Below, piece by piece: positions 24,894 through 33,291 of a stretch of DNA of 40,793 bases. The stretch is taken from positions 1 to 40,793 of the forward strand of contig JAFWEW010000021.1 in assembly GCA_017512725.1 (NCBI GenBank), read 5' to 3'. This stretch comes from Solobacterium sp. (GTDB taxonomy: Bacteria; Bacillota_I; Bacilli_A; Erysipelotrichales; Erysipelotrichaceae). The notes beneath the pieces were generated by a model. It was not told where the DNA came from. It did no database searches and worked only from the letters and a program-made list of their open reading frames with translations. Each line of letters begins with the position of its first letter. The first letter of the stretch is position 1. The position numbers and the translations under genes were made by a program.

Positions 24894-25499
24894 TTACTGA
24901 ATAAAACCAAACCGGCTGAACGGCCAGATCGTAAACAGAATTTTTGAAAACACCTGATCATAGGCAATACAGCCTATCTCCTTCATCCTGCTGTCTGCAG
25001 AATAGCTTCTCTGATCGCTCAGTACAAACAGCCGTTCTTCAGGAACCTGAAACGGAAAACTGATATCATGCATCCCCTGATCCTTTACTGCAACGTAAGG
25101 CTCCTCCAATGGTTCTTCATTAACAAATACGGTTCCATCTTCATCAATGTTCACCCAGTCACCACCAACCGCAATCACTCTTGCGACCAACATTTTATCT
25201 TTGTGGAAGAACGAAATCAGATTCCCCGGTTTCACATTTTCTGTTCGAAATGACAGTACAACATCTTCATCTTCCAATGTAGGATACATGGAAGGGCCAA
25301 AAATAGTAGAAATAGAAATCATCTGTGTCGACAGAATCATTGCGACTGCCGCAATAATAACAAACGCACAGAGTGTGGACACCAACGCCTGATGAAACGA
25401 TTTATGATATTTCACGCGTTTCAATTCCGATTCGATTGCTTCCGAATTCGGAAAATCGCCAATTTCGATTGTATTAATATTTAAGTTCTTCTGCCGCAT
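24894..25499 (-). CDS. Type I signal-peptidase-like protein lacking the catalytic Lys
   Basis: A 201-residue S26-family protein. An N-terminal cytosolic part (1-38) precedes one membrane helix (about 40-63). The Ser box is intact: GPSMYPTL with Ser70. The box that normally reads (Y/L)VKRVI..GD is LVARVIAVGGD, with Ala106 (codon GCA) in place of the general-base Lys. The later box is SDQRSYSADSR instead of GDNR.xSxDSR. Without the Lys, normal Ser/Lys proteolysis is not expected. Streptococcal pilus islands encode signal-peptidase-like SipA proteins that lack catalytic residues yet are needed for pilus assembly, so an assembly role fits. AGGT lies 6 nt before the chosen ATG, which is 7 nt after the minor pilin stop. 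Confidence 0.88.
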   Translation of the reverse strand: MRQKNLNINTIEIGDFPNSEAIESELKRVKYHKSFHQALVSTLCAFVIIAAVAMILSTQMISISTIFGPSMYPTLEDEDVVLSFRTENVKPGNLISFFHKDKMLVARVIAVGGDWVNIDEDGTVFVNEEPLEEPYVAVKDQGMHDISFPFQVPEERLFVLSDQRSYSADSRMKEIGCIAYDQVFSKILFTIWPFSRFGFIQ

Positions 25500-25506
25500 A
25501 ACCGAC

Positions 25507-26430
25507 CTATGACTTTCTATGCAGCATATAGCTTGCGGCAACTGCACTTAACAGCGAAACAGCCAGAATTACCAGTAATTCATCCACAAGAAGAGTGTCT
25601 CCGGTATTTGGTGCTTCTTCATCCGGTTTCTTTCCCTGATAGACATTCTTCATTGTAAATTCTGCCCCGGATTTTGTACTCACCAGTGAATATCCATCCG
25701 GTATGCTGACTTCTTTTACAGAATATGCAATTCCGTCCTTAACATCACTCCAGGAATAGCTCCAGTTATTCTCTTTATTCAGCACGACAGTAAAAGACTG
25801 TCTATTTCCTTTATATACTGCTACCGTAATTTCTTTTGGCCGCACCGCTTCACTGTCGTTTACCCATACTTTTTTCACACTGTAGTTCACAGTGTCATCA
25901 GAAGGATCCGGCAGTGTCTCTGTCCATTTCTTCGGCTCGCAGGCAAACTGATATACCCAGGCACCATTACTCCATTGCGGCACCATTACAAAGGTTGGGA
26001 TTGGATGATAGATTGTTCTTCCAATGGTTACAGAATCACCAACCATGAGATACAGCCCAAGCGGTATATTCTTTATCAGATGTTTGCCATCTGTTATCTT
26101 CCCTTCAAAGTCTGCAGTAAGACCATCGTCGTTTATTGCCTCTGCCAACGCTTCAGCGATTGTCTGCCATTCTTCTGCAGAATGATCAAACCCATCAAAT
26201 ACAGACGGCATATATTTACTGTACTTTTCATTAACTGTAAAGTTCACATTCTTATCTACATCAGCAATCTGATATAGATCGAAAGTCGTGCCTTCCCCTT
26301 CATATTCAATTGTTACAGCACCAGCTCTCCATGTTTCAATCTCACTGTAATTCTCTGCACTTACAGGCATGACGAAAACTGCTGTCATCAAACAAATCAG
26401 TAATGTCATAACACGCTGCAGTTTACGCAT
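25507..26430 (-). CDS. Minor/basal pilin with APNTG sorting signal
   Basis: A 307-residue secreted, wall-sorted protein. A signal peptide ends near VSA (23-25). An N-terminal pilin-like region follows, then a Cna-B-like beta domain (about 180-268) with VKKVWVND and VKEVSIPDGY segments of the isopeptide-forming type. The C-terminus has APNTG (273-277), a hydrophobic helix and a basic tail. The motif departs from LPxTG in its first residue; base pilins of other operons also carry variant motifs, so it may be anchored by a different sortase or act as chain terminator (inference). A very strong AGGAGG site precedes the ATG, with two hairpins just before that. Confidence 0.9.
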   Translation of the reverse strand: MRKLQRVMTLLICLMTAVFVMPVSAENYSEIETWRAGAVTIEYEGEGTTFDLYQIADVDKNVNFTVNEKYSKYMPSVFDGFDHSAEEWQTIAEALAEAINDDGLTADFEGKITDGKHLIKNIPLGLYLMVGDSVTIGRTIYHPIPTFVMVPQWSNGAWVYQFACEPKKWTETLPDPSDDTVNYSVKKVWVNDSEAVRPKEITVAVYKGNRQSFTVVLNKENNWSYSWSDVKDGIAYSVKEVSIPDGYSLVSTKSGAEFTMKNVYQGKKPDEEAPNTGDTLLVDELLVILAVSLLSAVAASYMLHRKS

Positions 26431-26517: not shown

Positions 26518-28221
26518 TTAATTAGAAATTCTGTTCTTGGAAATCAGCAATACAGCTGCCACTCCAACCAGCAGTCCACCTACTACATAGAACACGGTTG
26601 TACCGATGCCACCGGTGATAGGAAGGACAACACCTTTTTCATTTTTAATACTAGCAGTCAGGCTGGCATCTGTATTAGAAATTGTTGGCGTCATAGAGAT
26701 TGTACCGGATTGATCTGTACCAGATAACGATTTGATTTCTTTTCCATCATGAGTTGCTACAACCTGGAATTTTATCGGATCAATGGTGTTGTATCCAGCC
26801 GGTGTAGTTGTTTCGGTCAGTCTGTAATAGCCATCATCTAATCCGCTAAAGGTAAAGGTTGATCCGTCATTAGTCGTTGCCTTGCTTGGATTGCTTACCG
26901 ATTCACCGGTATGTAACGCAGTCACATCTGTCCAGGTTCCAATATAGTTTATATCATCGATTTTTTCGCTAGCTGGCCCTTGTTTATCGTTAATAAACTT
27001 CTCGAGTTTGAAATCCGCACCTTTCAATGAAGCACCGTTATCATCTGTTTTATTAAAAATCAGTTTGTAAGTGAAAATGATATTTACATCATCCGGAGTT
27101 ACTGTAGTACTACCTTCGACAATTGGGTTATTGGAGAATTCAATATGATAGCTGTTTCTGTTCCCAATACTGTTTATAACTGCATTGCTGTTTAATACCG
27201 CATTATACTTTACAGTTATCACATCTAAAGGCTTCAGTGTTGTTGGAATTGTTATTGCACTTGTACTTGCTTTGAGATCTGATATCTCATACTTGTAAAC
27301 GGTTCCCCCATAGATCGAAGCATCAGTAGTCTCACCAAATGTAATTGATTGTCCAACTGTATCACTTGACCCAAAATAGATAGTCGCGCTACGATCCCAC
27401 GTCAATCCCGAGCAAATATCATCAATAAACACCAGCTTATATTTCGTGTATTTATCGTAGTCTTCTGGAAGCGTAGCTGTCAGTGTAAATGGAATCGTAT
27501 CGCCAATATCATAATCGGCTGTTTTAGTTACTTCCTGTCCACTGTCGATCAAATTGTTAGAATCATTGATATCTGCTGTTGATTTGTTTGAAGACGGGAC
27601 TGCATTCTTGGTTTGAACAGTAACATCTTCTCCTACAATCTGAACAATAAAGTCACTGTTTGTTTTCCCCGTCGGTACTGCTGTATTTCTGACGAGATAG
27701 TATCCAGGGGTTACTGATACTTCATATCCATATTTAGCACTCTCGCCTGACCCCTCTGAATACCATGTCATCTTTTTTCCTTCTTCTAAAGACGAACCAT
27801 CAGAAACTCCCATCATGTTCAAAATGTCATGAAACACTCCGGTATTATTATTTTCCTTCTGTTTCTGCATCCATCTCGCAAACTCGGCAGCACTAGTGAT
27901 ATTTGAGCCGTCATCATTTTTGATCTTTGCGTATAATTTATCGATTGCGACCTGTTTAACATCATCTCCCCATTGAACGTTGGAAAGAACCCATTCATTC
28001 CCGGATTTAGACAGATCACCTTTCAGCATTTGGAACGCGTAATACTCATATCCTCTCCCATCTGTAGTAGCATCTTCGTTTTCAACTCTCAATTTATATT
28101 TTGTTTCCGTTGTTGCAGTTGTACTGGTGCTGCCATCCCCTTCTGCATTGATCGGACTTCCGATTCCAACAATAAGCAGGAGTGCCGCAAATAATGCGAG
28201 AATTCTTCTGATTTTATTCAT
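26518..28221 (-). CDS. Major (backbone) pilin with LPITG sorting signal
   Basis: A 567-residue pilin that forms the pilus shaft. A signal peptide ends near INA (about 24-26). An N-terminal domain is followed by a fimbrial isopeptide (D2-type) domain (about 225-375) starting EVTKTADYDIGDTIPF and a SpaA/prealbumin-like domain (about 385-525) with KLIFNKTDDNG, the catalytic-Glu segment LTETTTPAGYN and a late ISNTD. These are the Lys, Glu and Asn positions of intramolecular isopeptide bonds. LPITG is at 533-537, followed by a membrane helix and SKNR tail. GAAAGGA precedes the chosen ATG; the ATG 15 nt earlier belongs to the same purine-rich stretch. The Lys used for polymerisation is not certain. 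Confidence 0.93.
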   Translation of the reverse strand: MNKIRRILALFAALLLIVGIGSPINAEGDGSTSTTATTETKYKLRVENEDATTDGRGYEYYAFQMLKGDLSKSGNEWVLSNVQWGDDVKQVAIDKLYAKIKNDDGSNITSAAEFARWMQKQKENNNTGVFHDILNMMGVSDGSSLEEGKKMTWYSEGSGESAKYGYEVSVTPGYYLVRNTAVPTGKTNSDFIVQIVGEDVTVQTKNAVPSSNKSTADINDSNNLIDSGQEVTKTADYDIGDTIPFTLTATLPEDYDKYTKYKLVFIDDICSGLTWDRSATIYFGSSDTVGQSITFGETTDASIYGGTVYKYEISDLKASTSAITIPTTLKPLDVITVKYNAVLNSNAVINSIGNRNSYHIEFSNNPIVEGSTTVTPDDVNIIFTYKLIFNKTDDNGASLKGADFKLEKFINDKQGPASEKIDDINYIGTWTDVTALHTGESVSNPSKATTNDGSTFTFSGLDDGYYRLTETTTPAGYNTIDPIKFQVVATHDGKEIKSLSGTDQSGTISMTPTISNTDASLTASIKNEKGVVLPITGGIGTTVFYVVGGLLVGVAAVLLISKNRISN

Positions 28222-28236
28222 ATTTTTTCCTTTCAT

Positions 28237-32649: not shown

Positions 32650-33291
32650 TTAATGCCGGTTTTTGAAGCGGATCTTCGCATTCACGCACCGCTTTATGAT
32701 TTCATCCCGGATCATCGGATAATAAGGGTCATCCGCATAGATCATGTTGCAGGTAAACGGATGCGAAAGGCCGATGAAATGGTGTTCCGGATCAATGATG
32801 ACCCTGCGGACCTGTTCAAATGCAGAATAGGTGCCGGTGTTGCTGCCGATCTGCGCGTTCACCGCCAGCATTCCGTACTGATGCGTAAGGGCACCGGTAA
32901 TGGCAGCGGCACTGGCCAGCAGCTTTGTCTTTTCTGCCTGTTCCGTTACTTCAGTAACCCGGATGCCGGTTTCATCCATGTCATAGACCATGTAGTACAC
33001 ATCGTCATACAGCATCCGCATGAACCGGAAGACAAGGACTACAACAATGCCTGCGACCACAAAACATGGGATCACGATCTTTATTCCCCACAAAAACTGT
33101 TCCTTTGTAAGGGCAATGGCCATGATCAGCACGATCAGGACGAGCAGGGCGGCCAGAACCTTCAGGAGCACATACATAGGATGCAGGTTGGTCCGCATAT
33201 CCAGACCATAGATCCAGTGGTACTGTCCGTTTTCATCCGTCTTCAGCCCTTGCGGGCAGCGTTCCGTTTCTGTTCTCTGCTGTTGTGTCAT
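32650..33291 (-). CDS. Two-helix membrane protein of unknown function
   Basis: A 213-residue protein not recognised. The N-terminus is hydrophilic (1-40), two helices follow (about 41-62 and 68-89), and a C-terminal cytosolic domain of about 120 residues alternates beta-like segments (YYMVYDMDETGIRVTEV, VRRVIIDPEHHFIGL), suggestive of a small PH-like fold. Its ATG overlaps the ABC-F stop in ATGA, a translational-coupling arrangement, so it is expressed with the ABC-F protein. Confidence 0.75.
   Translation of the reverse strand: MTQQQRTETERCPQGLKTDENGQYHWIYGLDMRTNLHPMYVLLKVLAALLVLIVLIMAIALTKEQFLWGIKIVIPCFVVAGIVVVLVFRFMRMLYDDVYYMVYDMDETGIRVTEVTEQAEKTKLLASAAAITGALTHQYGMLAVNAQIGSNTGTYSAFEQVRRVIIDPEHHFIGLSHPFTCNMIYADDPYYPMIRDEIIKRCVNAKIRFKNRH

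Follow-up and report, generated by a model that had tools for sequence, protein, structure and literature searches.

The signal peptidase-like gene and its active site

The Solobacterium sp. contig JAFWEW010000021.1 (40,793 nt; this whole stretch of DNA is the window referred to below) carries a pilus operon, and one gene of that operon encodes a homologue of type I signal peptidases (SPases) with an altered active site. An initial reading of the gene from the sequence alone had placed it at 24894–25499 and described it as a pilus-operon SPase homologue that keeps the nucleophilic serine, lacks the general-base lysine, and might be an intermediate form or a pilus-assembly factor akin to the SipA proteins of streptococci. 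The coordinates are right. The gene lies on the minus strand, and the plus strand of the same interval is interrupted by stops. Its open reading frame (ORF) is full length, with no internal stop or frameshift; an alternative in-frame GTG start at 25547 is less likely because it would overlap the minor pilin gene. The protein matches Pfam Peptidase_S26 (PF10502) with 86.9 bits (cut-off 22.9) and TIGR02227 with 103 bits (cut-off 47), and it has both the profile and the fold of a type I SPase (MEROPS S26). Together with the adjoining pilins and class C sortase, these matches bear out its description as an SPase homologue of a pilus operon.

The two residues of the catalytic dyad have fared differently. 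The GPSMYPTL Ser box is intact and places Ser70 at the position of the SM-box nucleophile. At the general-base position the protein has Ala106, within VARVI. Its codon, GCA, is two bases away from AAA or AAG, so Ala106 is not explicable by a single read error; in view of the further changes in box E as well, a sequencing error was rejected as its source. A SipW/ER-type SPase with a Ser-His dyad was also rejected: alanine, not histidine, occupies the base position, and TIGR02228 scores only 26.1 bits against a cut-off of 51.85.

Further substitutions qualify the claim that only one catalytic residue is lost, which holds for the dyad (Ser kept, Lys gone) but not for the active site as a whole. 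Box E reads SDQRSYSADSR, with Gly161→Ser and His163→Gln relative to GDHR, so that serine stands where LepB has Gly272, at a site where active enzymes have an invariant glycine packed against the Lys. Gly185, invariant across 55 relatives with an intact Ser-Lys dyad, is likewise replaced by serine. Ser167, Asp169, Ser170 and Arg171 of box E are all retained; we take them to be the equivalents of LepB Ser278, Asp280, Ser281 and Arg282. Judged by the replacement of the lysine and of its neighbouring glycine, the protein has very probably lost its proteolytic activity.

The pilus operon

Read 5′ to 3′ on the minus strand, the operon encodes a tip protein, a major pilin, a minor pilin, the SPase homologue and a class C sortase (Table 1). 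Only 7 bp separate the stop codon of the minor pilin from the ATG of the SPase-like gene, and 2 bp separate the stop of the latter from the sortase ATG; this spacing suggests that the operon is a single transcript with coupled translation. By eye, the signal peptides in the translations end at VSA|EN in the minor pilin, INA|EG in the major pilin and AKA|HS in the tip protein. These AxA-like sites look ordinary and should be cleavable by a housekeeping SPase. Upstream of the operon and on the same strand, positions 32650–33291 hold a 213-residue membrane-protein-like ORF that has no Pfam match.

Table 1. Features of the SPase-like gene and the surrounding pilus operon (positions in the window)
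Feature	Position	Strand	Details
SPase-I-like protein, 201 aa	24894..25499	minus	ATG at 25499, TAA at 24894
N-terminal helix (membrane anchor) and S26 domain of the SPase-like protein			helix at residues 19–58; S26 domain at about 59–198
Ser box GPSMYPTL	25275..25298	minus	residues 68–75; nucleophile Ser70 kept
Ala106 codon	25182..25184	minus	GCA; catalytic Lys position (LepB Lys145)
Class C (pilus) sortase, 272 aa	24073..24891	minus	NF033745 276.5 bits, cut-off 160; TCTPYG...HRLLVRG motif
Minor (probably basal) pilin	25507..26430	minus	Cna_B domain; APNTG sorting motif
Major pilin	26518..28236	minus	GramPos_pilinBB and SpaA domains; LPITG
Tip protein/adhesin, 1363 aa	28350..32441	minus	SpaA domain, weak fibro-slime match; LPETG

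Active-site states among relatives

Relatives were sought in the genus, family, order (up to 316 species genomes) and class (395) of the window's organism, and in genome contigs. None was found in viral contigs, and plasmids gave only distant lepB genes. The search defined a pilus-SPase type of 63 distinct proteins, the window's protein included. Both Ser and Lys are present in 55 of them. The Lys column contains 55 lysines, seven arginines and a single alanine, that of the window, a distribution that argues against Ala106 being random variation.

Seven other Lys-less relatives occur in the order, all with arginine at the Lys site. Two, L073 and L074, belong to the window's own family and combine Asp at the Ser site with a LADER box E. 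The other five belong to a different family of the order: L076, L077 and L094 have Ala at the Ser site, L078 has Asp, and L075 keeps Ser. L075 (L085:8488-9102; G282:C1:1934493-1934975) is sister to relatives that lack both residues, which lends substance to the earlier suggestion of an intermediate state. The homologue with Asp, Arg and LADER, at L086:12753-13502 (G119:C23:40405-40950) and L087/L073, adjoins a sortase-domain protein and a SipW-like protein; the same genome encodes a pilus SPase with Lys some 9 kb away.

Any side chain in place of LepB Gly272 would clash with Lys145, and SipA has Asn140 there (PMC4049620), a parallel to Ser161 of the window's protein. Of the 81 Lys-bearing rows in our alignment, 80 have the glycine; of the 11 Lys-less rows, six have another residue. 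The one Lys-bearing exception, L099 (SDNR; locus L160:6807-7376, G447), has serine at this position and counters a strict clash rule. An independent-pairs test of Lys loss against Gly loss was not significant, with few independent pairs available. Ser161 fits a site freed from the constraint of the Lys clash, but L099, which combines Ser with Lys, keeps this from being proof.

SipA-type proteins also occur in the window's genus, in three other species (L030–L032). They have Asp, Tyr or Asn at the Ser site, Gly at the Lys site, and Asn or Ala at the Gly272 position. One of their loci (L079:5977-6510; the others are L080 and L081) is flanked by a SpaA-type pilin and followed by a DUF7601 protein and then a sortase-domain protein, a setting that resembles FCT/PI-2-type islands.

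Descent and number of lysine losses

Phylogenetic analysis places the window's protein within a group of pilus SPases that mostly retain the Ser-Lys dyad. The main tree comprises 92 rows with outgroups; streptococcal SipA itself is absent from it. The best tree has four losses of Lys, of which well supported branches force at least two; omitting the trait columns gives the same number. The SipA-type proteins L030–L032 branch outside the 63-row pilus-SPase group (support 100/93). Judged by these representatives from its own genus, the window's protein is not a SipA by descent; the tree assigns it instead to the separate pilus-SPase group. The earlier likening to SipA therefore stands for the missing lysine and for the structural match described below, but not for ancestry.

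The position of the protein within the group depends on the rows and columns used. With outgroups, it falls among Lys-bearing pilus SPases. When outgroups and trait columns are both left out, the Lys-less pilus proteins, the window's among them, come together at the edge of the Lys-bearing clade (weak support, 46/66). Its terminal branch is long, 1.3–1.4 against medians of 0.41 and 0.28. Approximately unbiased (AU) tests reject neither a union with the L075–L078/L094 clade (p 0.36) nor one with L015 and a paralogue of the same genome, encoded on contig C28 (p 0.39). The sortase encoded in the window clusters with others from its genus, among them that of the C28 operon (98), and apart from those of the other family (99), although an AU test on the sortases does not reject a union with the other family's clade (p 0.28).

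One reading of these trees is that the window's protein and the L075–L078/L094 clade descend from a single Lys-less ancestor. It is favoured by the gene order that the window shares with L088, L089 and L159, by the tree without outgroups and trait columns, and by the AU result for the SPases. The tree with outgroups, with its four losses and at least two of them forced, the grouping of the sortases, and the replacing residue, which is Ala in the window and Arg in the clade, speak for separate losses. We lean towards an independent loss in the window's protein, without regarding the matter as settled, and consider a shared Lys-less ancestor rather improbable. Such an origin would in any case be compatible with the function that we propose below.

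Operon position across related loci

Four loci, the window, L088, L089 and L159, have the tip, major pilin and minor pilin genes followed by the SPase homologue and a class C sortase, and the truncated contig L090 shows part of this order; the homologue is Lys-less in all of these loci. Four relatives (L076, L077, L078 and L094) are encoded immediately before a class C sortase, and all four also lack Ser. Lys-bearing copies, where their context was read, are linked to pilins or a class C sortase and mostly precede the tip gene or lie elsewhere. L075, in its context L085, heads its operon. A strict rule that a homologue placed before the sortase is Lys-less was rejected, as L057 and L021 have a sortase downstream and keep Lys; neither has a minor pilin upstream, so they do not show the minor pilin–SPase–sortase order. 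Because the loci are related to each other, the association of Lys loss with the slot before the sortase is no more than suggestive.

Other signal peptidases of the genome

The source genome (G000; 2.72 Mb, 45 contigs) encodes two further S26 proteins, both with an intact Ser-Lys dyad. Contig C22 encodes a canonical housekeeping SPase with SMYPTL, VKRVIGLPG and GDNR. The other, a 197-residue paralogue on contig C28 (41480-42037) with SMSPTL, VKRVI and GDHR, heads a second pilus operon in which it is followed by a tip protein, a major pilin, a minor pilin and a class C sortase. Among genomes of the order, this paralogue is the best match of the window's protein, with 47% identity; a Lachnospiraceae protein, L037, is slightly closer at 49%. 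Because two intact SPases exist in the genome, signal-peptide cleavage in the cell need not depend on the window's protein. An apparently dead and an apparently live pilus SPase, encoded in parallel operons of one genome, also make a direct comparison possible.

A probable non-catalytic assembly factor

The best explanation of these observations, which we consider probable by analogy with SipA, is that the window's protein is a proteolytically dead, SipA-like membrane assembly factor of the surrounding pilus. It would have originated as a pilus-dedicated type I SPase that lost proteolysis and now serves assembly without catalysis. The N-terminal helix would hold it in the membrane. The S26 domain retains its fold and the loop of the nucleophile, and most positions that relatives conserve are unchanged. 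Ser70 would not be deprotonated, as the lysine is replaced by alanine and the adjacent glycine by serine. On the analogy of SipA, the partner of the protein would be a pilin precursor held in the membrane, a sorting signal or the class C sortase, which it would keep in a state suited to polymerisation. The two intact SPases would then have the task of cleaving the pilin signal peptides.

SipA provides the precedent for this model. It is essential for pilus polymerisation and has no detectable peptidase activity, and its mutants D61A, D61S and D61A/K98A still polymerise (PMC4049620). It is therefore plausible that a protein with Ser and without Lys can function in assembly, and the pilus-assembly role put forward by the sequence-only reading is plausible by the same analogy. 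The closest solved structure to an AlphaFold2 model of the window's protein is SipA 4n31 (Z 16.2), followed by LepB (13.6) and SpsB (12.7; LepB/SpsB range 12.6–13.6). The gene, moreover, is kept at tight spacing inside an intact operon and is not visibly decayed.

Several points weigh against this explanation. The active site is not erased, for it still has Ser70, Ser167, Asp169 and Arg171, and the conserved cleft and fold could reflect inheritance instead of use. The structural model is of only moderate quality (predicted local distance difference test score 69). The species is represented by one genome, and ratios of nonsynonymous to synonymous substitution against relatives of ∼47% identity would be saturated. 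In SipA itself, the cleft-occluding V99R mutant still polymerised, and pull-downs gave no partner (PMC4049620).

The main rival, which we regard as unlikely, is that the gene is a functionless duplicate in decay: redundancy with the C28 paralogue would have relaxed selection, and Lys loss would be the first visible step of pseudogenisation. The long terminal branch, the functional-looking paralogue and the lack of an orthologue in about 316 related species genomes agree with decay. Against it, the ORF is intact, 27 of 34 near-invariant positions are kept despite the long branch, and co-directional neighbours flank the gene closely in an undamaged operon. In another family of the order, moreover, four species still carry parallel Lys-less copies directly upstream of the sortase.

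It is far less likely still that the protein remains a protease, perhaps specific for pilins, whose Ser70 is activated by K100 or K102 of the KDKM segment, by His99, or by a residue of the substrate or a partner: although Ser70, Ser167, Asp169 and Arg171 persist and K100 is a change found in this protein only, with H99 almost as restricted, the K102 column is also Lys in 43 of the 55 relatives that carry the catalytic Lys and is hence not compensating, K100 lies six residues from position 106 at the tip of a hairpin between strands 94–99 and 102–110, and the base position lacks the His of SipW/ER-type enzymes. Rescue by K100 or K102, which the sequence-only reading had named as the outcome that would overturn it, was rejected on the alignment and these strand positions. 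SipA offers a closer lysine, two residues from the Lys position, yet that residue is solvent-exposed and dispensable (PMC4049620). Its equivalent here, position 104 (SipA Lys83), is Leu in the window's protein and in all 55 relatives. No substitute base therefore stands out.

If the window's protein is indeed an assembly factor, Lys-less homologues beside class C sortases, in another branch of SPases, would make the SipA-like role more general and show that it has arisen more than once. We conjecture, tentatively and with less than even confidence, that pilus SPases repeatedly became non-catalytic assembly factors outside the SipA lineage, in class C pili, losing Lys before or together with Ser and coming to occupy the slot that separates the basal pilin from the sortase; the window's protein and L075 would then stand at the Ser-only stage. 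SipA is already an example of a dead SPase encoded among pilus genes. What is new here is the different descent, the retained Ser, and the class C sortase in place of class B. Our literature search found no paper on such operons in Erysipelotrichaceae. There is also a consequence for annotation, since the NCBI equivalog TIGR02227 would erroneously name both the window's protein and its double-loss relatives signal peptidase I.

Comparison with known systems

The nearest characterised system is SipA/LepA of the Streptococcus pyogenes FCT operons (PDB 4n31, 4k8w). Both proteins lack the catalytic Lys, replaced by Gly in SipA and Ala in the window's protein, and in both a residue with a side chain takes the place of LepB Gly272, Asn and Ser respectively. 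Both are membrane-anchored, with a small non-catalytic domain of SPase fold, and are encoded in a sortase/pilin operon. They differ in that Asp replaces Ser in SipA, whereas Ser70 is kept here, so that the double replacement typical of SipA is absent; the equivalent of LepB Ser278 is Arg in SipA and Ser here. The need for SipA has been tied to class B sortases, which the SipA operons discussed in that work encode (PMC4049620), in contrast to the class C sortase of the window.

Closest in sequence, with identities that reach 49% along almost the whole protein, are pilus SPases with Lys from Erysipelotrichales-like and Lachnospiraceae genomes, the C28 paralogue among them; annotation would call them signal peptidase I. 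They share the N-terminal ELxRxxxxK region and the WVNIDEDG motif with the window's protein; they differ in keeping Lys and GD(H/N)R and, among those with context read, in mostly standing at the operon head before the tip gene. The L075–L078/L094 proteins, too, are homologues of pilus SPases without Lys, and four of these five immediately precede a class C sortase, but they have Arg at the Lys site, keep the Gly272 position, and have lost Ser except in L075. SpsB and LepB share the S26 fold, the Ser box and the Asp and Arg of box E, and differ in having the catalytic Lys and the neighbouring Gly. The pilus SPases of Streptococcus suis and S. agalactiae, which we compare by their description, are also homologues encoded in pilus clusters and keep the dyad (PMC4049620).
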